Below are positions 6,078-40,033 of a DNA stretch of 41,238 nucleotides, one piece after another. Under the pieces are notes generated by a model. It saw nothing but the letters and a program-made list of their open reading frames with translations, searched no databases and was not told the origin of the DNA. Numbering within the stretch: position 1 is the first letter of the stretch; each line of letters starts with the position of its first letter. Source of the stretch: a virus; IMG/VR virus record IMGVR_UViG_3300033064_006821, positions 1 to 41,238 of that record; one strand, given 5' to 3'. The position numbers and the translations under genes were made by a program.

Positions 6078-8168
6078 TCACCCTCCGAACCACACTTCCA
6101 GGCCTTCGCAGCCATCGACTGCGGTCACGTTCAGGTAGAGCCGCTCGCCAGCCGCCACGACGTGCGACACAGCCGCATCGACGGCTGCAGATGTCGACAC
6201 GGACAGCGTGGCCAGCACCCCGCCATCGTCGCGAAGTTCCACCGTCGCGGTGCCGACGGTGCAGATGTGCCGGATCATCTCGATCCGTCGTGCCGCCGGC
6301 AGCGAGCGCGCGTAGTCGTAGGTCCCGACCGCGGGCGCCTCGATGCCGATGCCGTCGAAGGTGTCGGCCTTCTGCTGGAAATCGGTCCCCTGGACGCCGT
6401 CGAGCAGGTCGGCGTCGAGACCCGAGCCGAGCCCGTCGGTACCGGACGTCCAGACGGTCAGCCAGCCGCCCCATCCCCCGTTCTGCAGGACACGCAGGTA
6501 AGCGCGCCCGACGGCAGTGTCGGATACCGCCAGCTGGACGCCGTACCCGCCGCTGCGGGCGGTCGTCGACTTGATCCAGTGCCAACCCTGGGTCACACCG
6601 TCGATATTGGAGTCGCCGCTGGAGAAGCCCTCCGGTGCCGCGTTCGGATCGGACGTCGTGTGCGCGTTGGTGTACCGGGCAAAGCTGCTCGCCTGGACGC
6701 CGTCCAGCAGGTCTGCGTCGAGCCCGGAACCGGTCCCGTCCACCGACTTGATCGCGTCGAGGATCTCGCCAGCCGTCTGATCGGCGGTCGCACCACTCTC
6801 CACCGCGTCGAGCTTGGCCTTGTCGCCAGGCGCCATGAACCCGGCGAACCCACTCGTCGCCAGCCCGTGCGAATGCCCCGACCATGCTGCGCCGACGTCC
6901 GTGTGGGACAGCACCACGGCACCGGCCTGACCGTTGACCGACTGCACGGCATTAGGCTCGGCACCGTCGGTGACGCCGTCGAGCTTGGCCTTGTCGGCGG
7001 CCGACATGAAGCCGGCCATGGCTTGGGTGGCTGCTGCATGCGCTGCCCCGGCCGCCCCGACGTGGCTGGAGGGCGCTGCTCCCACATGCGTGGCGGTCAG
7101 TACCACCGCCCCCGCCATCGCGTTGACGGACTGCACCGGCGCCTGGCCGGCGGTGATGAACCCCGCATCGTTGGCGAATGCGGACAGGACCGTCGGCTTG
7201 CCGAGCAGATCCGCGTACTGGCCGGACAGCGCCACCACCGCCAGTTCCGCCGTAGACAGCGTGGTGTTCGCCCATGCGGCCGCCCCAGGCGACGCATCCA
7301 CGCAGCGATAGGCTTCGTCACCGAGCACGTCGATCCACAGAGACCCGACTGTCCAGCCGGCAGTGGCGTCGTCCGACGCGTTCGGTGCCCGGATGGCGTC
7401 GACATTGTATGGAAGGGTGTTGTTCACCTTGGCGGCCAGAGCCGCTTCCAGTTGCCCTTCCGTCACGCTCCCAGTCAGGCTCCCGAAGCTGCCCGCGATC
7501 GCGACTGGCGCCAGATCGGCCGGCTGCACGGCGGTATCCGCCTTGGCGCCCTGAGCCGCCGTCGCGTAGGCGGTGGCGTCGGTGGAGGCGGCGGTCCCCA
7601 GGACCGGGACACCCACCAGGTCGCCGTAGCTCCCTGACGTGGCGACGGGGGCCAGGTCGGCTGGCTGCACCGCGGTATCGGCCTTCGCGCCCTGGGCGGC
7701 ACCGGCGAATGCCTCGACGTTCTGCGCCGCCGCCGTGCCCAATGCCGGCCGCCCCGTCAGGTCTGAATAGACGCCCGTCCGCGCGACCTGCGGGAGTGCC
7801 GTTATCAGACCCTGAGCCTGCTGGAACGTCACCGGCATCAACGCCGCAGTCGCGTTGCCGTGAAGCGTGAGCGGGCCGGTCAGCGTGCCGCCAGCCAGCG
7901 GAACAGCGCCGATATCGCCAGCGCTGCCGGGGATCGTCGGCCGGTGCTGAAGGTGGAAGTACGACCCCGACAGGGCGACCTGGGCCAACTGTGTCAGGCG
8001 CACCGCATCGGCCGGCAATGCGATGCCGGCAGCGAGCGCCGCCTCCAACCCCACCAACTGATCCTGCAGGGCCTCGAGTTCCGCCTTGATGGTTGCGAAC
8101 TGGCGGCGCAGGCGCGCGGTATCGGCGTTGCCGGTTCTCGGCACCGTGGGATCAACGGCACTGGCCAA
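6078..8168 (-). CDS. Tail fibre protein with Stf-like repeats
   Basis: This 696-aa protein is a side tail fibre. Residues 20-50 form a likely coiled coil. Residues about 60-330 hold five variants of the phage fibre repeat (SGSYGDLVGVP; also SGSYFHLQHRP, TGVYSDLTGRP, SGQYADLLGKP and a degenerate SGSFGSLTGSV), and QGAKADTAVQPADLAPVA occurs twice. Three further shaft segments contain KAKLDGV or QSVNG and VVL motifs. The C-terminal region (from about 480) carries two copies of GSGLDADLLDGVQ, common in phage fibres. The open frame begins with a TTG codon four bases after the gpI stop; no better in-frame start is visible nearby. It follows gpI, which matches the position of P2 gpH. Confidence 0.88.
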   Translation of the reverse strand: MASAVDPTVPRTGNADTARLRRQFATIKAELEALQDQLVGLEAALAAGIALPADAVRLTQLAQVALSGSYFHLQHRPTIPGSAGDIGAVPLAGGTLTGPLTLHGNATAALMPVTFQQAQGLITALPQVARTGVYSDLTGRPALGTAAAQNVEAFAGAAQGAKADTAVQPADLAPVATSGSYGDLVGVPVLGTAASTDATAYATAAQGAKADTAVQPADLAPVAIAGSFGSLTGSVTEGQLEAALAAKVNNTLPYNVDAIRAPNASDDATAGWTVGSLWIDVLGDEAYRCVDASPGAAAWANTTLSTAELAVVALSGQYADLLGKPTVLSAFANDAGFITAGQAPVQSVNAMAGAVVLTATHVGAAPSSHVGAAGAAHAAATQAMAGFMSAADKAKLDGVTDGAEPNAVQSVNGQAGAVVLSHTDVGAAWSGHSHGLATSGFAGFMAPGDKAKLDAVESGATADQTAGEILDAIKSVDGTGSGLDADLLDGVQASSFARYTNAHTTSDPNAAPEGFSSGDSNIDGVTQGWHWIKSTTARSGGYGVQLAVSDTAVGRAYLRVLQNGGWGGWLTVWTSGTDGLGSGLDADLLDGVQGTDFQQKADTFDGIGIEAPAVGTYDYARSLPAARRIEMIRHICTVGTATVELRDDGGVLATLSVSTSAAVDAAVSHVVAAGERLYLNVTAVDGCEGLEVWFGG

Positions 8169-8171
8169 GGG

Positions 8172-9323
8172 TCAATCATCCCATTCGGTGGTGTTGCCGT
8201 CCCATTGGGTCTGGTCGTAGTCCCAGACGGTCTGCAGCACCGTGTTGCCCTGCTGGGTGTAGTAGGTGAGTTCGTTCGGCCCGAAGTGGCGGGTGGAGTC
8301 GCGGATTACGGTTCCGTCACGCGGATGGGACCTCACGGCGGAACCATAGACCGGTCCGTCGAGTGGTCGGCCGCCGGCCCAGGCATCGGGGTCCGGGTAG
8401 ACGAGGAACCCCGGAATCTCGGGCCACGCTCCGCGGGTATCGTCGAGCCTGAGCGCCAGCATCCGCGGCTGCGGTTCCAGGGCGTCGGCGAATCCCCTTC
8501 GCATGGCACCGGAGAACCGGACCGAGCCGTCGCGCCAGACACCCTGGACGCGTCGTCCTTCCAGTCCCAGACCGACATCCAGTCTGGTCGTGATCCGAGC
8601 GGTCCCAAAACTGAGCCCCACCCACTGCACGGCACCAGTCCGAGATGCGAGTACCCCGTACCGCCACACACCGTCGTGGAGGACACGGGCCGGCGAAGCG
8701 CGCCGATGTGTCCCGTCGCGGAACCCGGGACGCCGGCTGGCCAGAGCCAACCCAGCACGCAGCATCGGCGAGGCCGCCGCGACTGTTGTTCGGTTCTCCG
8801 ACAGCGTCGCCCGTAGCTCGAGGCTGCGCAGGTGCGAGCGGGCGTTCTTCCAAACGTCGATCGCGATACGGGCAAGCCGTGCGACTTCCGGGTCGAACCC
8901 CTTGTCGTTGCCGAGGTCCAGGGTGACGGAGAACAGCGCCCAGCGGCGACCGACGTTGTAGTCCTCCGTGCCGTCACGTCGGACCGTGGCGTCGTGGCGG
9001 AGAACCGCCTGGCCTTCCTGCACCGTGGCGTCCCGGAACCCGGCACTCACCAGACCCCGCCGGACAGCGTAAGGCGTGCCCTTGTAGCGGTGCAGTTCGA
9101 CCGCGGCAGCAACCATCGAGCGGCGCTCCGCCTCAGTTGTCGCCAGAGCCCACTCCTCGCCGATCGACAACGACCAAGCCAGCCAAGGCAGCAGATGCGC
9201 CGGGATGGTCCTCGGGTTCCAGAGATCCCGGTTCGGCACCGGGATGTCCGACAGGCGGGCCAGACTGATAGCCAGTGCCTGCTCGGCCGCACTCGCGTTC
9301 GACGGCAGCAGGGACGCTGTCAT
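8172..9323 (-). CDS. Baseplate / tail protein I (P2 gpI-like), extended
   Basis: The first 170 or so residues match phage tail protein I, a baseplate component joining gpJ to the fibre. They include LPWLAWSLSIGEEWALATTE and an ELHRYKGTPYAVRRGL segment characteristic of the family. The protein is 383 aa, about twice the P2 gpI length (176 aa). The extra C-terminal half has a run of short beta-rich repeats with RDGT, HDGV and RDGS motifs and ends in VWDYDQTQWDGNTTEWDD, which looks like a linker or fibre-attachment domain. The ATG overlaps the gpJ stop (ATGA). Confidence 0.9.
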   Translation of the reverse strand: MTASLLPSNASAAEQALAISLARLSDIPVPNRDLWNPRTIPAHLLPWLAWSLSIGEEWALATTEAERRSMVAAAVELHRYKGTPYAVRRGLVSAGFRDATVQEGQAVLRHDATVRRDGTEDYNVGRRWALFSVTLDLGNDKGFDPEVARLARIAIDVWKNARSHLRSLELRATLSENRTTVAAASPMLRAGLALASRRPGFRDGTHRRASPARVLHDGVWRYGVLASRTGAVQWVGLSFGTARITTRLDVGLGLEGRRVQGVWRDGSVRFSGAMRRGFADALEPQPRMLALRLDDTRGAWPEIPGFLVYPDPDAWAGGRPLDGPVYGSAVRSHPRDGTVIRDSTRHFGPNELTYYTQQGNTVLQTVWDYDQTQWDGNTTEWDD

Positions 9324-21725: not shown

Positions 21726-23045
21726 TCATGCCGCCGTCGCGTTCTCGACGCGATTCCTTCCCAGCCGCTCTGCCTTCACCTGAGCGAATGTCCGCCCGTC
21801 ACCGCCCAAAATCGCGTCCTTTCCCGTCTCGGCCTGCCAGCGTTCCACGGCGACGTCCACATAGGCCGGGCTGATCTCCATCGCGTAAACGCGCCGGCCG
21901 TTGGCCTCGCCCGCCATGATCTGCGAGCCGGAGCCCGAGAAGGGTTCGTAGCAGAGCCCACCGCGTGCCACATGCTGGCGCATCGGGATCCCGAACGCGT
22001 CGAGCGGCTTCGGAGTCGGATGGTCGGGCCGCTCGTCCTTCGCGAAGCTCGGCAGCTCCCAGGTCGACGCCAACGTATCGTCCGCCACCTTCGGCGGCCG
22101 GTTCGGGCGGCGCCAGCCCATGAAGCAGGGCTCGTGCTTCCACAGGTAATGGGACCGGGTCAGCACGCCGCGGTCCTTCACCCAGATGATCTGCTGATGT
22201 ACGAAGGCGCCGGCCTTCTCCCAGCACGCTTCGAGCATTCCCTGGCGGCGGGATGCATGCCAGCAGTACCAGGCCGCATCCTCGGTGATGGCTTCGGCTA
22301 CCGCGGCAGCGATGAAGCCGTCGTAGAGGTCGGAGCCCTGGCTGCTGTCGTCCCACGTCACGCCGTAGGAGTGCGACCAGTCCTTGTTCCGCGTCGGGTG
22401 GTTCGAGCCATCGTAGTCGACCAGGTATGGCGGGTCGGTGGCGAACAGCACCGCCCGCTCGCCGTTCATCAGGCGCCGAACGTCCTCGGGCTTCGTGCTG
22501 TCACCGCAGAGAAGCCTGTGATCGCCGAGGATCCAGAGGTCGCCGGTGCGCGATACCGGATTGCGCGGCGGCTCCGGCACCACGACCGGCGGGTTGCCTG
22601 CTTCCGACCCCGTCCCGCCATCTTCGTCGAGCGCCAGCAGACGATCGAGTTCGCCGTCCTCGAAGCCGATCAGCGACAGGTCGAAGTTCTCTGCCACCAG
22701 TTCCTTCAACTCGCCGGCAAGCAGCGCCTCGTCCCAGCCGCCAAGTTCTGTCAGCCGGTTGTCGGCGATGCGGTAAGCCTGACGCTGCGCCGGGGTCAGG
22801 TGATCCAGAACGATCACCGGCACCGCTTCGAGCCCGAGCTTGCGAGCCGCCAGCACCCGGCCGTGGCCGGCGATGATTTCGCCGCTTCCGGCGACCAGCA
22901 CCGGCACGGTCCAGCCGAACTCCGCCATGCTGCCGGCGATCTTCGCCACCTGACTGTCGTCGTGGATCCTGGCGTTGCGGGCATAGGGCAGCAGCCGTCC
23001 GATCGGCCAGGACGCAACCTGGTCGGGCGCGAAGCTGAGCGACAT
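21726..23045 (-). CDS. ParB-domain DNA methyltransferase (N4/N6 type)
   Basis: This 439-aa protein has an N-terminal ParB/Srx-like domain (residues about 10-95, with EIIAGHGRVLAARKLG) and a C-terminal adenine or cytosine-N4 methyltransferase domain. Motif IV is DPPY at 204-207, HPTPKP at 342-347, and the AdoMet-binding motif is EPFSGSGSQ at 367-375, an order typical of beta-class enzymes. No restriction gene lies nearby, so it is an orphan, possibly protecting phage DNA or controlling transcription. ATG 23045 is preceded by GAGG about 13 bases upstream. A GTG at 23108 would add 21 residues, but that stretch is part of a repeat array, so I prefer the shorter form. Confidence 0.93.
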   Translation of the reverse strand: MSLSFAPDQVASWPIGRLLPYARNARIHDDSQVAKIAGSMAEFGWTVPVLVAGSGEIIAGHGRVLAARKLGLEAVPVIVLDHLTPAQRQAYRIADNRLTELGGWDEALLAGELKELVAENFDLSLIGFEDGELDRLLALDEDGGTGSEAGNPPVVVPEPPRNPVSRTGDLWILGDHRLLCGDSTKPEDVRRLMNGERAVLFATDPPYLVDYDGSNHPTRNKDWSHSYGVTWDDSSQGSDLYDGFIAAAVAEAITEDAAWYCWHASRRQGMLEACWEKAGAFVHQQIIWVKDRGVLTRSHYLWKHEPCFMGWRRPNRPPKVADDTLASTWELPSFAKDERPDHPTPKPLDAFGIPMRQHVARGGLCYEPFSGSGSQIMAGEANGRRVYAMEISPAYVDVAVERWQAETGKDAILGGDGRTFAQVKAERLGRNRVENATAA

Positions 23046-23080
23046 GATGGCAAAGACCTCGGTCGAGCGGAGGGTGGATG

Positions 23081-23104
23081 CCGGGGTGGCTTTCCAGGTG
23101 GAGT
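23081..23104. repeat. Repeat copy 1, CCGGGGTGGCTT-CCA-GTGGA type
   Basis: This 24-base stretch recurs with few changes at 23189-23210. It overlaps a set of shorter GTGGA(C/T/G)TCC motifs at 23098-23131 (for example GGTGGAGTCCAC, GGTGGATTCC, GGTGGACTCC) and a CCTGGAGTCCAGG palindrome at 23141-23153. The set lies directly upstream of the methyltransferase and is probably regulatory. Confidence 0.6.
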
Positions 23105-23188
23105 CCACGAGGTGGATTCCGGGTGGACTCCGGAAGTCATCCTGGAGTCCAGGTTAGTCCATTGATATCACGCTAATATTCCGAAATC

Positions 23189-25230: not shown

Positions 25231-25745
25231 CGCACACCTCCATCGGTCTCGATGGCCCAGAGCAGGATGGCGATGGCGTCGGCTTCATTGTCGTCCGCGG
25301 GCGAGAAACCCCGGGCGCGAACGGCAGCCATGACGGTGGCCTTATCAGCGTTGCCCTTGGCGGCGACGTGCCGCTTGATGGTGCTGACGGGAACACCCTG
25401 ATAGGCGATTTCCCGCTGCTCGCACCAGGCGGTCAGCGTTGCCAGGAAGCCGCCGTAGAGATGCGCGGCGTCGGTGCCCACGTGTCGACGGACCTCTTCG
25501 AAATGAATAGTGCTGATCGGACCGGCGTCCGCGGCCAGTTGATCCAGCCAAGCGCGGAAGCGCAGGTAGCGCATGCCGCCACCGTCGTAGCGGCTCGGGC
25601 GGAACGAGACCGTGCCGCTCGTGATCAGGCTGTCCGGCGCCCGCAGCGCCCAGCCGGTGGTGGTGCCGAGATCGAGGGCGAGGACAACCAGCGCGCCGGG
25701 AAACGAGGCGCTCATGGGTTTCGGGGTCAGAGATACGTGGGCCAT
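25227..25745 (-). CDS. RuvC-like Holliday junction resolvase
   Basis: This 172-aa protein cleaves branched DNA, probably Holliday junctions or recombination intermediates of the phage. The RuvC fold acidic residues are visible: Asp25 in LALDLGTTTGWAL, Glu83/Glu84 in IHFEEVRRH, and Asp152/Asp156 in DDNEADAIAILLWA. YQGVPVSTIKRHVAAKGNAD is the typical segment before the last motif. The ATG at 25745 has AAAGGAG upstream; the open frame extends 20 codons further without support. It follows the primase-helicase by 56 bases. Confidence 0.9.
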   Translation of the reverse strand: MAHVSLTPKPMSASFPGALVVLALDLGTTTGWALRAPDSLITSGTVSFRPSRYDGGGMRYLRFRAWLDQLAADAGPISTIHFEEVRRHVGTDAAHLYGGFLATLTAWCEQREIAYQGVPVSTIKRHVAAKGNADKATVMAAVRARGFSPADDNEADAIAILLWAIETDGGVR

Positions 25746-25801
25746 GATCGGCTCCTTTCCGGTTTGATGCGCGATGGGGTGATGGGCGGGGCGTACGGGG
25801 C

Positions 25802-28753
25802 TCATGGATCGAGCTCCCGCAGCCAGTCGGGGGGGTCGGCGCCGAGGGGATCGGTCCGTCGTGAAGGTTGGTCAGGGTGGTGAGGGTGAGGCTCCGTACC
25901 CTCCAGGCCGTAACCTGTTGTTTCAAAAGCCTCCCGTGAGGGTGGTGAGGGTTGTGAGGGTTTTCCGGGGTCTTCTATCGTGTGCGCGTGCGCGCACGCG
26001 TAAGGGTCTGGGAAACATTCACGACCCTCACGACCCTCACGAGCGCCCTTCAAGACATTGATTTCATGTCTCTTTATTTCGTGAGGGTTGTCGAACCAAC
26101 CCTCACGAGAATACGCAACCCTCACCGAAAGTTCGGCCGATGCCGAACCTGAGCCTTCGGCGGAGAGCACGATCTGGAGCCTCCAGCGCGCCGCACCCTG
26201 GTATTTGCCCGCCGATGCAAGGCGCAGATCGAGGTCGCCGCAGCGAAAGATGCGGTCGCGCATTTTCGGCAGTGCCTTACCGAGCCGCACCCGTTGCGAT
26301 TGATCGTTGCCTGTTCCGAGCGGCAATGGCGGTTCGAGCGTCTGCGCAATCGCGAACAGGTCAACGGTTCCGACCTCGGCGGTGCCGAAGCGATCCCACC
26401 AGGCCGACACGAAGCTGCGCCAGACGGCACCCTCGCTGTCGGAGGCATCCATCATCTCGTCGAGATTGCCGAGGAAACCTGGAATGCCGGCGACCTCGAG
26501 CACACCACCGATGATTTGCGCCCAGTTCTCGTAGGAGCCGATGGTGCGTGAGGCGCGGGGTTTTCCCGCGGCGATCCAGGCCTGGCAAAGCGTCAGACAG
26601 GCGGCGACGAGACGCGGGCGATTGGCGCGCACCCAGGTCATCAGATCGGGGTGGCGGAAATCGGTGCGCTGCCAGGGCCGCTCGACATGCGGATCGAGCC
26701 GGATGCGCACAAGACGTCGCGCCATCTCGTTGGAGAACTCGGGATTGTTGCCGGTGGCGATCCACAGGCAGCGGATCGGCAGCCGCGCCATCTCCGAGGC
26801 GCCGAGAATGCGGTCCTCCCAGAACGGCGCGGTGAGAGCCGCCGCAACGGCCGCGCTATCGAGCTTGTTGCGCAGATTGTCGATCAGCACGATCGCCGGG
26901 ATCTGGCGCAGCTTCGCAGTGACGCGCTTGCGCCACTCCTCGTCGTCGCGGCCCTCGGTCATGACGCTGGCGCCAGCGCCGGTGAGGATCGTGGCGATGG
27001 CGTCGACCATCAGCGTCGCCCCGGAGCCGGGCGTCGGCTTCTCGATCAGATGCAGCGGCGTCGGCCCATCGATCATGCCGCGCAGGAAGCCGAGCAGCAG
27101 GAGGGCGACGACATGGGCCAGCTCGGCCGGACCGACGAACGGGAAGTCGCCCAGCAGGTCCTCACACAGAAGGCTGCGTGCGCCGGCAATCTCTTCGGCT
27201 GATGGCCTGACGGAAATGGCAGGCACGGTGAACCCGGGCATCGGGGCGTAGAGAAGCCGCGCATCGGGGTGATAGCCGGGGCTCGTGAGGAGCTTGCCGT
27301 TTCGGCCGAAGACCGGCGTGTTCACGATGCCGACCAGCACGGGCAGTGCCGGATCGGGTGTTGCGAGCACGGACTTGACGACGCCGAGCGGCGGCGGTGC
27401 CGCAACCAGTTCGCCCTTGGCGTTGAGCCGCTTCCAGTGCGCGAGCCGCGCCAGCATGTGGCGCAGCCGTTCCTCGGTGATGGTGGTCGCGACGGGTCGC
27501 CCCTCGTCGTCCGGCACGACCCATGTGAGCTGGCCGGCGAAGCGGTACACCCAGGGTGTCCGGTTCGATGCCAGGAGCAGGCTCCAGACCCGCTCGACGG
27601 CACGCCCCAGGTCGCCCTCGTCGGCCCGCAGCGTCGGCAGCGCCTGGGGCTCTTCGTAGTTGAGGGGCCGGTGCCGGCCGATCTGCAGGACCGTTTCGGC
27701 ATCGACGGCGCTGTCCGCCTCGGCGATCGCCCGCGCGACAGCCTCGGGCCCCTCGCGGAGCAGAAAGTCGTTGAAATCCTCGCCCTCAAGAGGCGGCAGC
27801 ACGATCGCCACGTCGCGGCCCTGCGCGCGCAGGCGCCGGGCGGCGGCGTCCGCGGCGCGCATGCCGGCGCCGGAGACATCGTTGTCGGCGAGGATCAGGA
27901 TGCGCCGTGCGGCGGGCGGCAGATCGATCTGCTCCAGGCCGGAGGTCGAAAGCGTCGCCCAGACCGGTAGACCAGCGCATGCGGTCATCGCCGCGAGCCC
28001 GGTCTCGATGCCTTCGCAAAGCGCCAGCCGATCGCCGTCGCCGAGCTCGGCGAGACGCATGGCGCCGCCGGCCACCCGGCCGAGCATCTTCCTTGCCTTG
28101 TCCAGGGGCGCCTTGGTGACCGCTCCCTCGTCGATCGCGAGGTAGGTACGGTGCAGACCGATGATGGTGCCGTTCCGGTCGCGAACCTGCCCCAGCATCG
28201 CGGGATAGCCGGTTTTGGTCTCCCAATGCGTCAGGTCGGGATGGAACAGCAGGTCGGCCCCGCCGGGGACGGTCAGGCCGCGCCCGACCAGATACCGCGC
28301 GACCGGCGATCCGGCGATGGGTTGCGCGGCGGACAGGATATGGGCGATCTCAAGGGCGGGATCGCGCTTGGAGGGCGGTGGTGTCGGCGGCGCGCGCCGC
28401 GCCGGCGCTCCGGGAGCGACGCCCGTCATCTCGGCCGCCTCTACGATCAGCGCTCGGCCCTTGAGACCCGTCGCCTCCTCGATGGCGCTGATTGGCCCGC
28501 CGCCCTGGTTGCCGTCGAAGTCGATCCAGTCACCGGCATGGGCGCCGCGCAGCGTGATGACGCAAGAGCCCATCTTGCGCGGCGCATCGCCCCGGATGTT
28601 GGCCAGCCGCCATTCGTCGCCGGACCGGCGACCGTTCGGAAAGAGACGCGGCACCCATGTCTCGGCGGTCTCGCGCAGACGATGCACGACGAGATCGAGA
28701 TCGTAGCGCAGGGGCTCGTCGCCGAGCGGCTTGACCTCGTTGAAGTCAAGCAA
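25802..28753 (-). CDS. Toprim primase-helicase replication protein
   Basis: This 983-aa protein probably initiates and drives phage replication. Residues about 1-115 are a DUF7146-like domain (HAGDWIDFDGNQGGGPISA), and 235-330 a Toprim domain with CEGIETG (246-252, catalytic Glu248) and LILADNDVSGAGM (286-298, Asp290/Asp292). The C-terminal half has an AAA or SF3-like ATPase: a P-loop-like KPTPGSGAT (572-580), IVLIDNLRN (621-629) as Walker B, ATGNN (666-670) as sensor, and an RR pair (679-680). The last 100 residues are low in complexity and encoded by the iteron region. The start is TTG, 8 bases inside the helicase stop; no better start is seen. Confidence 0.9.
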   Translation of the reverse strand: MLDFNEVKPLGDEPLRYDLDLVVHRLRETAETWVPRLFPNGRRSGDEWRLANIRGDAPRKMGSCVITLRGAHAGDWIDFDGNQGGGPISAIEEATGLKGRALIVEAAEMTGVAPGAPARRAPPTPPPSKRDPALEIAHILSAAQPIAGSPVARYLVGRGLTVPGGADLLFHPDLTHWETKTGYPAMLGQVRDRNGTIIGLHRTYLAIDEGAVTKAPLDKARKMLGRVAGGAMRLAELGDGDRLALCEGIETGLAAMTACAGLPVWATLSTSGLEQIDLPPAARRILILADNDVSGAGMRAADAAARRLRAQGRDVAIVLPPLEGEDFNDFLLREGPEAVARAIAEADSAVDAETVLQIGRHRPLNYEEPQALPTLRADEGDLGRAVERVWSLLLASNRTPWVYRFAGQLTWVVPDDEGRPVATTITEERLRHMLARLAHWKRLNAKGELVAAPPPLGVVKSVLATPDPALPVLVGIVNTPVFGRNGKLLTSPGYHPDARLLYAPMPGFTVPAISVRPSAEEIAGARSLLCEDLLGDFPFVGPAELAHVVALLLLGFLRGMIDGPTPLHLIEKPTPGSGATLMVDAIATILTGAGASVMTEGRDDEEWRKRVTAKLRQIPAIVLIDNLRNKLDSAAVAAALTAPFWEDRILGASEMARLPIRCLWIATGNNPEFSNEMARRLVRIRLDPHVERPWQRTDFRHPDLMTWVRANRPRLVAACLTLCQAWIAAGKPRASRTIGSYENWAQIIGGVLEVAGIPGFLGNLDEMMDASDSEGAVWRSFVSAWWDRFGTAEVGTVDLFAIAQTLEPPLPLGTGNDQSQRVRLGKALPKMRDRIFRCGDLDLRLASAGKYQGAARWRLQIVLSAEGSGSASAELSVRVAYSREGWFDNPHEIKRHEINVLKGAREGREGRECFPDPYACAHAHTIEDPGKPSQPSPPSREAFETTGYGLEGTEPHPHHPDQPSRRTDPLGADPPDWLRELDP
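25871..26125. repeat. Iteron array, candidate phage replication origin
   Basis: The 8-bp word GTGAGGGT occurs five times on the plus strand (25880, 25936, 25945, 25954, 26081) and four times on the minus strand (26024, 26033, 26099, 26118). Three plus copies and two minus copies are spaced by exactly 9 bp. A perfect 16-bp palindrome lies in the middle (25985-26000), and an AT-rich stretch follows at 26053-26080. The array lies inside the 3' end of the replication gene, as the lambda ori lies in gene O. Confidence 0.7.
25985..26000. repeat. 16-bp palindrome CGCGTGCGCGCACGCG
   Basis: This perfect palindrome of alternating purine and pyrimidine bases lies between the two iteron clusters. It could be a structured element of the origin or just an effect of His/Ala codons (it encodes part of a CAHAH run); the flanking iterons make the first more likely. 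Confidence 0.5.
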
Positions 28754-30029
28754 GGATCACCAGCCCTCTCTCGGCCCGCGTGATCGCGGTGTAGAGCCAG
28801 CGGTTGCGGTCGGCTGCGGTGCGCCCGAATCCGTCGTCGAACACGACGACGTTCTCCCATTGCGAGCCCTGCGATTTGTGACAGGTGATCGCGTAGCCCC
28901 AGCTGGTCTCGATCAGACCGCGCCGTGCCTGCCATTCCCGCCGTCCGCGCTCGGGATCTAAAGCGACATGGTCGGCATATTCGCCGCGCCAGAAGCTCTG
29001 CCGTCCGGCGATGCTCAGGCCGTCCTCGGTCTCGACCATGGCGCTGAAGGCGAAGGCGTCGCCCGGGTCCAGCCGCACGTCGGTGAGGGTCAGGAACATG
29101 CCGTTGATCAGCCCGAGATCGTGGCGGTTCTTGAGGCAGATGATTTTCTCGCCGCTGCCGGTGGGATAGTCGGCGCCGAAACCGGCCGCGCGCTTCATCG
29201 CGGTGTTGAGAGAGCGCCGCGTCGCGTTGGTGCCGCAGATCACCTGTCCGCCCTGCAGCATCTGCGCAGGCCCGACATCGTGGCGGGACATCTTCCAGAC
29301 ATGGTCATCATGCGCGCCGGGCGGGATCGGCAGCCCCTCGCGGGCCAGTGTCGCGAGTCGCAGGATGGCGCTGTCGCCCGCCTGGCGATGCACCTCGGTC
29401 AGCATCACGTCGGGCGCTGCTTCGGTGAAGAAGCCGAGGCCCTTGATCGGCGGCAACTGGCCGGGATCGCCCAGCACCAGGATCGGTTTGCCGAAAGCCA
29501 GCAGGTCGTGCGCCATGTCCGCGCCGACCATGGACACCTCGTCGAGGACGAGCAGGTCAGCATCGCGCAGAGCCGACTGCTCGTTGATCAGGAACTTCGG
29601 CTGGTGGATGTCCTCCAGGCGCAGCTCGAGCTGCGCGATCCGGGTCATTGCGAAGTCCCGCTCGGCCGGCCCCATGCGCGGCAGGTCGCGGCGCAGCGAG
29701 GCCAGATCCTCGGTCACCCGCGCGATCTCCTCGGGCGTCGCCTCGGAGACCCGGTAGATGAGGCTGTGGATGGTCTGCGCGGGTGTGCCCTTGCGCGTCA
29801 TGACCAATGCCGCCTTGCCGGTGAAGGCGGCGAAGAGCACGCCGCCAAGGCCGCCGGGGGTCATGGGTTCGAACCCGAGCGCATCGATCGCGAGAGCGGT
29901 GATCGTCGTCTTGCCGGTTCCGGCATAGCCGAAGAGCCGGAAAATCTGCTGCTCGCCGCGGCGGTTCTCGTACCAGTCGCGGATGGCCGCGATGGCGCGC
30001 GCCTGCATGTCTGACAGGTTGATGGTCAT
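28746..30029 (-). CDS. RecD/Dda-like SF1 DNA helicase
   Basis: This 427-aa protein is an ATP-dependent 5'-3'-type SF1B helicase. Motif I is GYAGTGKTT (34-42), motif II VLDEVSMV (161-168), motif III GDPGQLPPIKGLGFF (187-201). The C-terminal motifs ITCHKSQGSQWENVVVFDD (about 385-403) and RWLYTAITRAERGLVIL (about 410-426) are those of RecD and T4 Dda. The ATG at 30029 overlaps the nuclease stop by four bases, whereas the longer open frame reads through the nuclease gene out of frame. It is followed by the primase with an 8-bp overlap, so both act in replication and repair. Confidence 0.95.
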   Translation of the reverse strand: MTINLSDMQARAIAAIRDWYENRRGEQQIFRLFGYAGTGKTTITALAIDALGFEPMTPGGLGGVLFAAFTGKAALVMTRKGTPAQTIHSLIYRVSEATPEEIARVTEDLASLRRDLPRMGPAERDFAMTRIAQLELRLEDIHQPKFLINEQSALRDADLLVLDEVSMVGADMAHDLLAFGKPILVLGDPGQLPPIKGLGFFTEAAPDVMLTEVHRQAGDSAILRLATLAREGLPIPPGAHDDHVWKMSRHDVGPAQMLQGGQVICGTNATRRSLNTAMKRAAGFGADYPTGSGEKIICLKNRHDLGLINGMFLTLTDVRLDPGDAFAFSAMVETEDGLSIAGRQSFWRGEYADHVALDPERGRREWQARRGLIETSWGYAITCHKSQGSQWENVVVFDDGFGRTAADRNRWLYTAITRAERGLVILA

Positions 30030-30796
30030 GCCCGGTCCTTCCAGCAGCGCGCGGCGTAAGGACAGAACCGGCACAAATAGAAATCCTGGGCCGCAGCGAT
30101 CCGCGGTGGGAGTTCGCCGGCTGCCGCCGCGCGTAGGACATCGACGGCCTTGTCGGACAGCGCCTGCGCGCAGGGCGGATCGAACGCGACCACCTCGTGG
30201 TGGAGCGCCTCGGTGTCCTTGTTGAGCGCCGTGACGAGGGCGGTCTCCAGTTCCAGGTAGCCCATGTAGAGCTGGACTTGGGCGAAGTAGACCGGCTTCG
30301 AGAGCGCGAGGCCGCGCTTGACGAGGTCGTTCCAGGATTTGGCGTTGAGCGCCTTGTGCTCCCACAGTGCCGGCCAGCGCAGGCCGACATCGGGGCCTGC
30401 GACGATCACGCCGTCGATGTGGCCACGCAGTCTGCCGCCCGCCGCCTCGAACCCGAATTGTCCGCCATCGGCGCGCTCGGTGCGAAGATCGAAGCCTGCG
30501 CCGCGAAGCCAGCGGATGGAGAGGGTCTCGAATTGGTGGCCGGCGTCGAAGATGCGCAGGATCGCGCCATCGAAATCCCGTCCATCATCCTTGGGCGTAT
30601 GGGTCACCTCGTAGACGAGCTTGCGCGCGCAGGGCTCGCCGATCCGGCTGCCGCCGAGATAGTCGCGCGGCGTCTGCCGGCGATTGCGTGCGACGAGCGC
30701 CGCATCGATCAGGGTATTGACCCGATCGGACACGCTGATCGCGTGGCCGATGCGGCCATAGACGAAGCCGGAGCCGTGATTGAGATCGATACCCAT
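30026..30796 (-). CDS. Cas4/RecB-like PD-(D/E)XK nuclease with Fe-S cysteines
   Basis: This 256-aa protein is an exonuclease of the RecB/Cas4 superfamily. The active-site elements are GHIDG (125-129, Asp128), WEHKA (145-149, E and K) and QVQLYMGY (173-180, Q). Four cysteines fit an iron-sulphur cluster: Cys56 in IGEPCARKLVYE, and Cys242, Cys245, Cys251 in the C-terminal LCRFCPYAARCW. GAGGTG lies 6 bases before the ATG. It overlaps the helicase gene by four bases, and lies next to Sak4 and SSB genes, so it probably makes single strands for annealing. Confidence 0.92.
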   Translation of the reverse strand: MGIDLNHGSGFVYGRIGHAISVSDRVNTLIDAALVARNRRQTPRDYLGGSRIGEPCARKLVYEVTHTPKDDGRDFDGAILRIFDAGHQFETLSIRWLRGAGFDLRTERADGGQFGFEAAGGRLRGHIDGVIVAGPDVGLRWPALWEHKALNAKSWNDLVKRGLALSKPVYFAQVQLYMGYLELETALVTALNKDTEALHHEVVAFDPPCAQALSDKAVDVLRAAAAGELPPRIAAAQDFYLCRFCPYAARCWKDRA

Positions 30797-35577: not shown

Positions 35578-35617
35578 GTTAGACCGTCTCCCGCCGCATG
35601 TTAGACTGTTGTTAGAC
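35578..35617. repeat. Three GTTAGAC repeats upstream of the zinc-ribbon gene
   Basis: GTTAGAC occurs at 35578-35584, 35600-35606 and 35611-35617 in the same orientation, the last overlapping the stop codon of the 749-aa gene. The copies start 22 and 11 bp apart, one helical turn steps, which suggests binding sites for a protein on one DNA face. Confidence 0.55.
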
Positions 35618-37861
35618 GGGTTCTTCGACCGCAGTCTGGGTGACACTCTCCGTCGGCAGCGCGGCCAGCACCAAACGCCAGTAGCCGTTCTTTGCGCCCT
35701 TGCCGATATAGACGTCCCGGATGCTGTCCCACGTCTCCTTCCGGAATGCCTGCTGCGGGCTTCTGCAGTCGAAGCCATCCATCAAGGCCTTGACCTGAAC
35801 GTCCGGGCTGCCCTTTCCGGCGGCGACGACAAGGCGTTCGAAGATCGTCAATTGATCGTTCCCGCCCAGGTGCAACGGCTCCTTGCCCGGGATGTACAGT
35901 GTGCCGGATTGGGTACCTGTCCGGATGACACGCGGCGACACGCCGCCCCGCGCGAGCGAGAGGCTGTTCCGATATGCGAGTTCGAGGCCGTCGCGGGAGA
36001 ACAGCAGATCATCGTCGGCGGGTGATAGGTGCGACAGAAGCGGCACGACCACGTTCGGCCCGAGATGCGATGGCATTTCCTCGCTCGCCGCCAGAATGAT
36101 CCCGACACCTGCAGTATCCCTCGCGCGCAACACCAGATCCAACCGCTGTGCAGTTTTTGGGTCATTGAGGCGCCGGGCAAAATAGACGGGAACGTCGCCA
36201 TCATTGATCCGCATCGCACCGAGAAGGGTCAGGTCCGGGTCGAGGATCTGGGCTGCCCGCTTGCTCAAGATCGGCTTCATCAGACGCGTGAGCGTCTCAT
36301 GAAGCCACTGGCCGTTGATGGCGAACATCTTGACATCCGACAAAGGTCTCTTGCCCGCGTCCTCACCGAACGGCCCCTCCGTGCGGACCATGCCTTCTGT
36401 CGCAGATGGCTTGACGCTGCCTTCCCCGTCGATGTCGTCGTCTTCGATGAGGACTATGTCCTGCCGGTCGCGGCGCTCGAGCAGGCCGCCTTCAATAAGG
36501 CGGCTGGCGTCGAGCCCCAGTTCCAGAAGATACCCGCCGCTGACCTCGTCCTCGACCCGATCGTGGAGTTGGACCAGCTGGGCGAATATCGCGCGCAGAT
36601 CGTCGGGTGCGATCTGCCGGAATGCGCTGAGAATCCCCCATTCCTTCAGGAGCGCAAAGCCAAGGCTGCGTTCTTCCGGATCCGTCTTGCTCTGCAGGTT
36701 GCAGCTCTTCGTTCCGGCTATAGTGATGTTGATCGACCGCTCCTTCTCGTCGCCGACGCGATTGTAGGCGACGGCGATCCCGATACGGCTGAAGGCTTCG
36801 GCGCGCCGAAAGATGTTCCTGGCACCGAGATACTGGTCCGCCACTTCCTCGATATCGTCGTCAACGGTGACCTTCAGCTGCAGCTTGCGGCGCCAGGTGC
36901 CAAGCCGGACCTCGGCCTCGAGGACGCGTGCAAACTCGAACTCGTAGCCCTCGATCTCGGGCGGCTCCAGAAGCAGCGAGGTACGGAATCGGGAGAGGTT
37001 GTAGCGCTTCCAGGTCAATGGCTTCTGAGAGATGTCGTGCCCGAGGGCGACTTCGGCGAACGAGTCGCTGACCGTCTGGCGGACCACCGGGCTGTCCGCG
37101 CAGACCTCGATCTGACGCAGCGAGGGCGTGTAGATGAGCGTCGCCTCGTTCGGCGGGCGATAGTAGATGGTCCCCCTGCGTCCGTCATGCCGGTGGTCAT
37201 AAACGCTCGACAGCGGCCCGCCATGCCGGACGATCAGCATGATCGATGCAGGGTGCGTGTCGGTGGCGGGAAGATCCAGCGCTTTCACGGTGCAGGAAAT
37301 GTCGGACTTCAGCTCAAGCATGTACTTGATCTTGGCAGCCAGCGCTGCCTCGTTGATTGCCGCAGCATCGAGGGCCAGGTGGTTCTCGAGTTCGACCTCG
37401 AAAGCGTCATAGAGCTTGCCATGGTCGCGGAACTGCCGTGCGAAATGAAAACTTTCCGCATCCTCGAACGTCTCGCGCGCGTTCAGATAGACCCATATGC
37501 TTCTGCATAGCCGATCGGGCTGGCGCTCGAAGTCTTCCGACTGGTCGTCGTCGAGCCGCTGCTCGACGATCGTCGAGAGGGAGGTGACGCCCTTGCCGTC
37601 CGCGAGAGACCGGATTCGTCGTGCTCGCTGCTCTGCGGGTCGCAGTTCGTCCTGATCGAATTCCGATAGCGTCTGGACGAGTCTTTGCCGGAAAGCCTCG
37701 ACCGCTTCTTCGTCAGAGTGGTCGGGAATGTCGTCGGGCAACTTGAAGTCCGGCTCGTTGTCACCCTCCCGAAGAGCAAGGGCTGATCGGGCGAGGTCCA
37801 CGCGCGCATCCTCGATCAGCGCCAGGACATGGGGACCGATCGGATTTGCTTTGCGCGCCAT
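35612..37861 (-). CDS. Large orphan protein of unknown function (749 aa)
   Basis: I do not recognise this protein. It starts MARKANPIGPHVLALIEDAR. Residues 1-100 are acidic and helical, about 100-330 alpha/beta, and about 330-460 beta-rich (RVLEAEVRLGTWRRKLQLKV, then VADQYLGARNIFRRAE). An acidic linker around 490-510 is followed by about 530-660 (GQWLHETLTRLMKPILSKRA, VVVPLLSHLSPADDDLLFS) and a C-terminal winged-helix-like end (NDQLTIFERLVVAAGKGSPD, AFRKETWDSIRDVYIGKGAK and NGYWRLV). No ATPase, nuclease or membrane motif is visible. The gene has its own promoter and sits between the early operon and the recombinase module, a usual place for cargo or defence genes and for regulators. Confidence 0.8.
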   Translation of the reverse strand: MARKANPIGPHVLALIEDARVDLARSALALREGDNEPDFKLPDDIPDHSDEEAVEAFRQRLVQTLSEFDQDELRPAEQRARRIRSLADGKGVTSLSTIVEQRLDDDQSEDFERQPDRLCRSIWVYLNARETFEDAESFHFARQFRDHGKLYDAFEVELENHLALDAAAINEAALAAKIKYMLELKSDISCTVKALDLPATDTHPASIMLIVRHGGPLSSVYDHRHDGRRGTIYYRPPNEATLIYTPSLRQIEVCADSPVVRQTVSDSFAEVALGHDISQKPLTWKRYNLSRFRTSLLLEPPEIEGYEFEFARVLEAEVRLGTWRRKLQLKVTVDDDIEEVADQYLGARNIFRRAEAFSRIGIAVAYNRVGDEKERSINITIAGTKSCNLQSKTDPEERSLGFALLKEWGILSAFRQIAPDDLRAIFAQLVQLHDRVEDEVSGGYLLELGLDASRLIEGGLLERRDRQDIVLIEDDDIDGEGSVKPSATEGMVRTEGPFGEDAGKRPLSDVKMFAINGQWLHETLTRLMKPILSKRAAQILDPDLTLLGAMRINDGDVPVYFARRLNDPKTAQRLDLVLRARDTAGVGIILAASEEMPSHLGPNVVVPLLSHLSPADDDLLFSRDGLELAYRNSLSLARGGVSPRVIRTGTQSGTLYIPGKEPLHLGGNDQLTIFERLVVAAGKGSPDVQVKALMDGFDCRSPQQAFRKETWDSIRDVYIGKGAKNGYWRLVLAALPTESVTQTAVEEPV

Positions 37862-38253: not shown

Positions 38254-38705
38254 ACAAGCCCGATTCCATCCCCGCGCGTCTGGCTGCGCTCAAGGCCACG
38301 CCGGCGCCCGACCTGAAGCAACAGTGGCGCGACCTGTTCGACAGCGAGCCGCCGCCCTTCAATCGCCGCTATCTCGAAAGCCGCATCGCGTATCGCATCC
38401 AGGAACTCGCCTATGGCGGGCTGAAGCCCGAGACGATCCGGCGGCTTGAGCGGCTGGGCGAAGAACTGGACGGCGGCGACAGGAAGAAGCGCAGCATCCG
38501 CGCCGATCGCGACCGCCCAATCACCGGCACGCGGCTGCTGCGCGAATGGCAGGGCGTCGAGCAGATCGTCACCGTCACCGCCGATGGCTTCGAATGGCAG
38601 GGGCGGCCCTACAAGTCGCTCTCCGCCATCGCGCGGGCGATCACCGGCACGCGCTGGAACGGGTGGACCTTCTTCGGGCTGAAGAACCACAGGAGGCGGA
38701 CATGA
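38250..38705 (+). CDS. DUF2924 domain protein
   Basis: This 151-aa protein matches DUF2924: SIPARLAALKATPAPDLKQQ, WRDLFDSEPPPFNRRYLESR, IAYRIQELAYGGLKPETI, PITGTRLLREWQGVEQIVTV, FEWQGRPYKSLSAIARAITG and RWNGWTFFGL near the C-terminus. The family almost always precedes a serine recombinase, as here, and may act as its accessory DNA-binding factor; the C-terminal part resembles a homing-type DNA-binding fold. GGAGA lies about 6 bases before the ATG. It overlaps the recombinase start by four bases. Confidence 0.93.
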   Translation: MNKPDSIPARLAALKATPAPDLKQQWRDLFDSEPPPFNRRYLESRIAYRIQELAYGGLKPETIRRLERLGEELDGGDRKKRSIRADRDRPITGTRLLREWQGVEQIVTVTADGFEWQGRPYKSLSAIARAITGTRWNGWTFFGLKNHRRRT

Positions 38706-40033
38706 CGAAGCCGCCGGAAAAATCGAAGGTCGTCCGCAAGCTGCGGTGCGCCGTCTACACCCGGAAATCATCCGAGGAAGGGCTTGAGCAGGAGTTCAAC
38801 AGCCTGCATGCCCAGCGTGAGGCCTGCGAGGCGTACATCGCCAGCCAGCGGTCGGAAGGGTGGGTGCTGGTCCGCGATCAGTATGACGACGGCGGCATCT
38901 CGGGCGGCACGCTGGAACGGCCGGCGCTGAAGCGGTTGCTCGCCGACATCGAGAGCGGGCGGGTCGATGTGATCGTCGTCTACAAGATCGACCGGCTGTC
39001 GCGCGCGCTGATGGATTTTGCCAAGCTGGTCGAGGTGTTCGATCGGAACGACGTCACATTTGTCAGCGTCACGCAGTCGTTTAACACGACGACCTCGATG
39101 GGCCGGCTGACGCTGAATATCCTGCTTTCCTTCGCCCAGTTCGAGCGCGAGGTCATTGGCGAGCGGATCCGCGACAAGTTCGCCGCCTCGCGCAAGAGGG
39201 GCATGTGGATGGGCGGCCATCCACCGCTCGGCTATGCCGTCAGGGATAGGAAGCTGGAGATCAACGACGCTGAGGCGGCCACGGTACGCATGATCTTCGA
39301 GCGCTTCCTCGAGATCGGCTCGGCCACCACCCTCGCGAGGGACCTCGCGAATGAGGGCGTCACCACCAAGCGCGGCCGGCCAATCGACAAGGGTGTCATC
39401 TACAAGCTGCTCGCGAACCGGGTCTACATCGGCGAGGCCGTTCACAAGGGCACAGCCTATCCCGGCGAGCACAAGGCCATCATCAGCCGCGACCTGTGGG
39501 ACAAGGCGCACAGCATCATGGCGGTGAGCCCACGAACCCGTGCCTCCAACACGCGCGCGCAGACGCCGTCGCTGCTGAAGGGGTTACTCTTCGGGCCCAC
39601 CGGTTGCGCCATGTCGCCGTCGCACACGCGCAAGGGTGGGCGGCTCTACCGCTACTATGTCAGCCAGTCGGTGATCAAACGCGGCGCCGGTGCATGTCCC
39701 GTGGCCCGGCTACCGGCGGCCGAGATTGAAGCCGGAGTCGTTGACCAGCTGCGCGGCATGTTGCGCGCGCCGGAAATCATCATCGGCACGTGGCGCGCGG
39801 CCCGCCCGGAGATCGAGGGGATTGCGGAAGCTGAGGTGCGCGAAGCCATCGAACGGCTGGATCCGCTTTGGGACGAGCTCTTCCCCGCCGAGCAGGCGCG
39901 CATCGTCCAACTCCTGATCGAGCGTGTCGATGTTGGCATCGGCGGTGTCGACATCCGGTTGCGGACCGCCGGGCTGGCAAGCCTGGTTGGTGAGCTCCGC
40001 GTCATTGATGCCGGTCAGCGGAGCGCTGCATGA
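38702..40033 (+). CDS. Large serine recombinase (resolvase/integrase family)
   Basis: This 443-aa protein is a site-specific serine recombinase. The catalytic domain covers residues 14-165: the nucleophile is Ser23 in CAVYTRKSSEEG, followed by GGISGGTLERPALKRL, VDVIVVYKIDRLSRALMDF and the FAQFEREVIGERIRDK motif. A recombinase domain (about 175-290) includes GGHPPLGYAV, RPIDKGVIYKLLANRVYIGE and HKAIISRDLWDKA. A zinc-ribbon-like part with few cysteines (GLLFGPTGCAMSPSHTRKGG) and a coiled-coil end follow. It is rather short for this group. Placed at the right end of the phage genes, it is the best candidate for the integrase. Confidence 0.94.
   Translation: MTKPPEKSKVVRKLRCAVYTRKSSEEGLEQEFNSLHAQREACEAYIASQRSEGWVLVRDQYDDGGISGGTLERPALKRLLADIESGRVDVIVVYKIDRLSRALMDFAKLVEVFDRNDVTFVSVTQSFNTTTSMGRLTLNILLSFAQFEREVIGERIRDKFAASRKRGMWMGGHPPLGYAVRDRKLEINDAEAATVRMIFERFLEIGSATTLARDLANEGVTTKRGRPIDKGVIYKLLANRVYIGEAVHKGTAYPGEHKAIISRDLWDKAHSIMAVSPRTRASNTRAQTPSLLKGLLFGPTGCAMSPSHTRKGGRLYRYYVSQSVIKRGAGACPVARLPAAEIEAGVVDQLRGMLRAPEIIIGTWRAARPEIEGIAEAEVREAIERLDPLWDELFPAEQARIVQLLIERVDVGIGGVDIRLRTAGLASLVGELRVIDAGQRSAA

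Follow-up and report, generated by a model that had tools for sequence, protein, structure and literature searches.

In P4 alpha, SaPI/PICI Rep and pWTY27 RepA, a primase-helicase or helicase reads an iteron origin through its C-terminal domain, and lambda O and RA3 offer examples of origins that lie inside an initiator gene. The P4 alpha protein unites a Toprim-type primase, a helicase and a C-terminal winged-helix origin-binding domain, and its octamer iterons stand in both orientations; P4 also carries iterons at crr, a second site separate from ori, and plasmid iterons often serve copy control, incompatibility or autoregulation. In lambda the iteron origin lies inside gene O, where longer iterons follow one another in the same direction in mid-gene, and the O protein binds DNA through its N terminus and is not a primase-helicase. 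For RA3, oriV is reported at the 3′ end of repB (PMC9455977). In the Rep-ori modules of SaPI/PICI elements, two iteron sets flank an AT-rich centre 3′ of rep and are read by the C-terminal domain of the protein (PMC6092414, PMC7581432). The archaeal plasmid pRN1 encodes ORF904, a primase-helicase-winged-helix initiator whose origin lies 3′ of its gene, is described as a stem-loop without iterons and forms the sequence-variable part of a conserved region; P4 alpha is also compared in that work (PMC4234260). Finally, RepA of the Streptomyces plasmid pWTY27 binds the adjacent 300-bp iteron region in EMSA and protects 405-447 and 462-509 from DNase I, replication requires repA, repB and the iteron region, and the locus can drive bidirectional replication (PMC3583192).

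Here we describe an iteron cluster in a contractile-tailed prophage that fills the analysed stretch of 41,238 nucleotides (the window). On the basis of sequence comparison, we consider it very likely (probability about 0.9) that the cluster at 25880-26125 is the replication origin of the prophage, read by the winged helix of its own primase-helicase. This reading is supported by the sites, by how they are laid out, by covariation between their bases and winged-helix residues, and by homology to pWTY27 RepA, whose iteron binding has been measured.

The locus resembles P4 in its Toprim-type primase (Pfam Toprim_3, with a DnaG-like fold here) and in octamer iterons in both orientations, but its Walker A motif is altered (GSGAT), so that there is no canonical P-loop, and no sequence match to P4 alpha structures was found. 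A winged-helix topology is predicted here with no significant PDB fold or sequence match, and a separate crr element is a feature of P4 that the window does not share. Two iteron sets around a central region and a C-terminal reading domain are common to the window and SaPI/PICI, whereas the centre in the window is alternating and G+C-rich (AT 0.19 at the dyad) rather than AT-rich, and the candidate origin lies inside the gene of a full-size prophage rather than 3′ of the gene. With pRN1 the locus shares the initiator architecture and an origin that is the sequence-variable part of a conserved region; pRN1 differs in its archaeo-eukaryotic prim-pol and its stem-loop without iterons. An earlier note on this DNA had likened the cluster to the lambda origin. 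The likeness holds for the location inside the replication gene and fails otherwise: the N terminus of the window's protein is a primase, the covariation maps to its C-terminal domain, and the closer matches are pWTY27 RepA and, by design, P4 alpha and SaPI/PICI Rep.

New here are the prophage family, an octamer origin that is overprinted on coding sequence and keeps its layout, the number of distinct words, and a predictive residue-to-base code; our literature search, mostly outside subscription journals, returned no description of this prophage initiator family. How initiator and origin specificity change together without loss of replication has usually been studied one pair at a time. The family offers about 130 natural pairs with more than 20 words, which yield residue partners base by base and a rule that predicts unseen words.

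An iteron cluster within the primase-helicase gene

The octamer GTGAGGGT has 10 exact matches in the whole window against a chance expectation of 1.17, and no shuffle gave 10. Nine of the ten fall in 25880-26125, at the 3′ end of the prophage primase-helicase gene, on the plus strand at 25880, 25936, 25945, 25954 and 26081 and on the minus strand at 26024, 26033, 26099 and 26118. The spacing is exactly 9 bp at 25936/45/54 and 26024/33, and degenerate copies at 25871 (GTCAGGGT) and 26015 (ACATTCAC; GTGAATGT on the gene strand) extend the pattern. Shuffling of 25801-26200 gave at most 3 copies of any octamer, and in a scan of the whole window no octamer outside the cluster occurred more than four times per 300 bp. 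A 16-bp palindrome (CGCGTGCGCGCACGCG) occupies 25985-26000, midway along the spacer that separates the two main iteron blocks, and the DNA around 26050-26080 is AT-rich; an Rfam search of 25700-26300 gave no match to a known RNA family. These results bear out the earlier note, which had reported nine copies in both orientations within about 250 bp, several at exact 9-bp spacing, with the palindrome and the AT-rich stretch between copies, inside the 3′ end of the primase-helicase gene. Its reading of the cluster as a phage origin is supported by the cluster itself, the layout in 58 homologues, the covariation and the homology to pWTY27 RepA described below.

Table 1. Features of the initiator gene and the candidate origin in the window
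Feature	Positions	Strand	Basis
Initiator gene, 983 aa: N-terminal Toprim-type primase, P-loop helicase-like region, winged helix at the C terminus, tail encoded by the iterons	25802-28753	-	ORF, DUF7146, Toprim_3, phrog_10537, DNA primase families, AlphaFold, fold search of the primase part
Predicted winged-helix DNA-binding domain, residues 786-862	26168-26398	-	AlphaFold, mostly pLDDT about 90 over 777-862; word-covarying residues lie here
Putative recognition helix, residues 817-831, including 818, 822 and 826	26261-26305	-	Covary with word positions 4, 3 and 2; helix in model
Wing tip, residues 850-854	26192-26206	-	Covary with word positions 7 and 5; hairpin turn in model
Conserved C-terminal peptide PDWLRELDP, end of the frame running through the candidate origin	25805-25831	-	P975 and W977 invariant in A3; short helix in model
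Core iteron block 1: three GTGAGGGT at 9-bp pitch (25936, 25945, 25954)	25936-25961	+	Octamer search, layout comparison
Core iteron block 2, head to head with block 1: GTGAGGGT at 26024 and 26033, degenerate GTGAATGT at 26015	26015-26040	-	Octamer search, layout
Central spacer, 53 nt: palindrome 25985-26000 and alternating purine-pyrimidine stretch	25962-26014	.	Conserved in homologues
Outer iterons: degenerate 25871-25878, exact 25880-25887	25871-25887	+	Sequence, octamer search
Outer iteron	26081-26088	+	Octamer search, homologue comparison
Outer iteron, inverted relative to 26081-26088	26099-26106	-	Octamer search, inverted repeats, homologue comparison
Outer iteron	26118-26125	-	Octamer search, homologue comparison
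Dda-like helicase gene, neighbour of the initiator gene	28746-30365		

Tail sheath, baseplate, major head protein, portal and terminase genes occupy about 0.3-20 kb of the window, replication and recombination genes about 20-33 kb, and the integrase gene 38546-40033. A minus-strand gene at 21726-23108 encodes a ParB-like domain fused to a DNA methyltransferase. Near the integrase, a 749-aa ORF (35612-37861, minus strand) matches phrog_37634 alone, a group of unassigned function, and no Pfam or PADLOC entry; it is possibly a cargo gene.

In the initiator, DUF7146 and Toprim_3 (primase) are followed by a region that matches phrog_10537. An AlphaFold model gave a DnaG/T7-type primase N terminus, low confidence over the P-loop region and a tail that is predicted to be disordered from about residue 864, except for the last short helix. 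No Pfam family matched the initiator region (helicase-like part and winged helix), PDB sequences searched by profile gave no match, P4 alpha structures included, and a fold search of the PDB with the winged-helix model returned weak matches alone, several of them winged-helix entries (Kin17, FOXN1) and none significant. The Walker A motif of the window's family reads GSGAT (residues 572-580, 27014-27040), with alanine for the usual lysine, and not GxGK[ST]; plasmid relatives have GSGK[ST] or GTGK[ST]. Viral relatives without the Walker A lysine have a lysine nearby, four residues N-terminal to the first G of GxG (EKPTPGSGAT); it is absent from the plasmid relatives and is possibly a relocated Walker A lysine. 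Because the usual lysine is missing, helicase activity of the window's initiator is uncertain, and the neighbouring Dda-like helicase could supply the unwinding activity.

Homologues share the layout and differ in the word

Among the distinct homologues found in scans of viral contigs and bacterial genomes, 120 had a readable tail. For 113 of them we could define a clear octamer particular to that homologue, which follows the pattern A N N Y Y C M C when read on the gene strand (the first two bases being left open in four of the 113), for example AGGTTCAC, AGGTTCCC, AGGCTCAC, AGGTCCCC, ACATTCAC, ACGTTCCC, ATCCTCCC and AGACCCCC. Five of the remaining seven have a repeated word that is of uncertain register, off-pattern or present in few copies, and the tails of the most distant homologues, L162 and L163 (41-42% identical), hold no repeated word. 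In L163 (Planctomycetota, about 7700-8200), which has no cluster at the gene end, AGTGAACC occurs three times in each orientation about 2 kb downstream, and this may be the L163 origin. Among isolated phages we found distant relatives only (less than 60% identity over at most half of the protein); phages RpAliso and phiCbK had no comparable cluster near the gene, and genome searches around two of the matches gave no further element.

All 58 non-redundant representatives have one octamer in 5-14 exact copies, in both orientations and in the same stretch; elsewhere in these loci the words are no more frequent than chance predicts (17 seen, about 17 expected). There are 20 word types among the 58, all copies within one element change together, and the word switched at least 40 times on a tree of the protein body (residues 381-775). 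The layout of the core is shared: two head-to-head blocks of up to three sites each, at 9-bp pitch, enclose a spacer of 53-71 nt. The spacer sequence is conserved in the homologues, including a strongly alternating purine-pyrimidine stretch (alternation of 0.89 in most homologues against 0.54 in the coding background), and in the window the spacer is a candidate Z-DNA-forming element. DNA and peptide constraint on the spacer are inseparable because it is nearly always in one frame. By eye, only a CCCTAYGYG-like piece of the spacer seems common to distant relatives.

Since the candidate origin overlaps the 3′ end of the initiator gene, the iterons dictate a repetitive, predicted-disordered protein tail, and the octamers might conversely have been selected as simple peptide repeats of that tail, with the DNA repeats as a by-product. 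Consistent with this, 9 bp equal three codons, most same-orientation copies share a frame, and the frame stays open to a conserved PxWL-like end in 51 of the 58 representatives. Yet the copies stand in both orientations and use all three frames in each, the peptide changes with the word (GRE, GEP, CEP, GGP, GEC), and tail identity is 36% between different-word pairs; L072 keeps six of nine sites past a stop codon (possibly a sequencing error), and in distant relatives sites lie outside coding sequence. With all frames used and a peptide that varies with the word, we rejected the repeat peptide as the selected feature and give this explanation practically no credence. The PxWL end may serve as a short interaction motif, in which case it would hold the reading frame open across the candidate origin.

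The earlier note had held that the DNA rather than the peptide is conserved, and proposed to ask whether homologues keep the sites while the peptide drifts. The homologues showed this in a stronger form, in that the word itself differs and its copies change jointly with the residues that would read them, and none of them was seen to keep the peptide and lose the DNA words. The locus is a remarkably clear example of a functional DNA element that overprints protein-coding sequence.

A residue-to-base code in the predicted winged helix

Mutual information between each variable base and about 735 protein columns singled out column 826 for base 2, 822 for base 3, 818 for base 4, 854 for base 5 and 852/853 for base 7, and outside these columns the protein hardly covaried with the word. 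Across the 58 tabulated representatives, R or K at 818 goes with T4 and other residues with C4, with one exception; T822 pairs with G3 in 33 of 34, H852 with C7 in 30 of 31, Q or R852 with A7 in 27 of 27 and A854 with T5 in 45 of 45. An AlphaFold model of the domain, built from the protein alignment alone, places 818, 822 and 826 together on a helix (817-831), putatively the recognition helix of a winged helix, and 852/853 at a beta-hairpin tip, putatively its wing. When independent row pairs on the tree were compared, using two-state groupings picked after the table was seen, base and residue changed together in practically every case, base 5 having too few such pairs for significance alone.

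The rule for position 7 was written down before a genome scan and was correct in 25 of 25 representatives from that later scan. The full rule was likewise fixed beforehand and applied to 17 new distinct loci, 14 of which had a readable word. By script score it predicted 9 of 14 whole words; four of the five misses (L241, L294, L295 and L296) were register ties, in which the predicted ACGTTCCC equals CGTTCCCC in count, and with these resolved the rule predicted 13 of 14. Correctly predicted words included AGACTCCC and AGACCCAC, both absent from the training set, and the sole remaining miss, L276, had a wrong base 2. The unscored loci were L309, with an off-pattern word (it would miss base 2), L319, with no repeated word, and L285, a truncated sequence.

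The same data bear on how the sites are read. The initiator might recognize a folded stem-loop of the inverted blocks, as a single strand or a cruciform, rather than duplex octamers, which would preserve the origin role. The blocks are inverted repeats, a stem-loop was proposed by the pWTY27 authors (PMC3583192), and pRN1-type initiators need one 3′ of their gene (PMC4234260). We nevertheless consider recognition of a folded structure improbable: each base goes with particular recognition-helix or wing residues across 20 words, as duplex reading predicts, same-orientation sites at 9-bp pitch are kept, and several elements have extra unpaired sites. There is hardly any chance, in our estimate, that the cluster is a partition or methylation site of another protein such as the ParB-like/methyltransferase fusion (21726-23108); the gene for the ParB-like domain is 3 kb away, but the octamer changes with the winged helix of the primase, and clusters also stand beside the initiator gene in relatives from unrelated plasmids and an archaeal virus.

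Homologous initiators in plasmids and an archaeal virus

A tblastn comparison of residues 400-836 matched a protein of pWTY27 at 32% identity (E about 1e-45, 44% of the protein), which by its position (621-2198 in PMC3583192) is RepA. Its inner octamer pairs, head to head and at 9-bp pitch, lie at 405-421 and 486-502 (coordinates converted), inside both footprints; the middle of the spacer is unprotected, and one of the four inner sites has one mismatch. pWTY27 and the window thus have in common a homologous initiator region, octamers in both orientations and a head-to-head core of 9-bp pitch beside repA or its counterpart. They differ in that the pWTY27 iterons are noncoding and downstream of the gene, whereas those of the window lie inside the reading frame, and in that the pWTY27 primase is a separate prim-pol, RepB, whereas the Toprim-type primase of the window is fused to the initiator. 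Further differences are two sites per core block against three, a canonical Walker A motif against GSGAT, and a plasmid against a prophage.

Other relatives also carry their sites outside coding sequence. In Azospirillum AZO_p2 the core stands alone, as three plus three AAACCCAC beside the homologue, and clusters outside coding sequence were also found in S. cyaneofuscatus, Streptomyces NBC_01335, pCM32 and the archaeal virus vir525. Judged from these sequences, noncoding sites downstream of the gene are the usual condition in distant relatives; the window's family, in which the frame passes across the candidate origin to the PxWL end, is a candidate for the derived state. The comparison links alphaproteobacterial prophages, for a large group of which it suggests an origin, to plasmid and archaeal-virus replicons through a common initiator region.

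Replication might still start elsewhere, with the primase-helicase binding the iterons for copy control, incompatibility or autoregulation, roles that are known for plasmid iterons; in P4, too, crr is separate from ori. This we regard as very improbable, as the window holds no second cluster and the paired site was found nowhere else in the genome. The homologous pWTY27 region, moreover, is essential for replication (PMC3583192).

Proposed mechanism and cassette behaviour

If the cluster is the origin, the C-terminal winged helix would bind the octamer ACCCTCAC (gene strand) as iterons, and the two blocks, facing head to head with about three sites each at 9-bp pitch, would seat several initiators on each side of the 53-bp spacer, with the outer sites adding further initiator molecules. 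Once assembled, the initiators would open the spacer, or the DNA at its edges, for priming; their primase and helicase/P-loop modules, brought to both sides of the spacer, would start replication, which would probably be bidirectional, as the symmetry of the core suggests. Within this scheme the recognition step alone is well supported; we infer binding by the window's own protein, strand opening, subunit number, direction and the start of replication at this site. The cumulative GC-skew minimum of the window lies at 22950, 3 kb from the core, which counts against the scheme. In 28 of 31 loci the G-C skew is higher in the 3 kb downstream of the core than in the 3 kb upstream, as expected of an origin, a result that counts little because much the same genes probably flank the core each time.

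A broader proposal, to which we give even odds, is that these proteins form a so far unnamed family of initiators whose own genes overprint the origin, and that winged helix and origin change as one cassette, by drift and by exchange. If so, cassette change would produce many distinct replication specificities with a simple residue-to-base code, and prophages could use this natural system to escape cross-talk or incompatibility with relatives that are already resident. Protein bodies that are nearly identical can go with words that differ and with winged helices that differ strongly: between the window and L018, identity is 97% over residues 381-740 and 47% over 786-862. Recombination that exchanged the winged helix together with the origin would be the simplest reading of the sharpest such cases. 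At every level of body identity, same-word pairs have the more similar winged helices.
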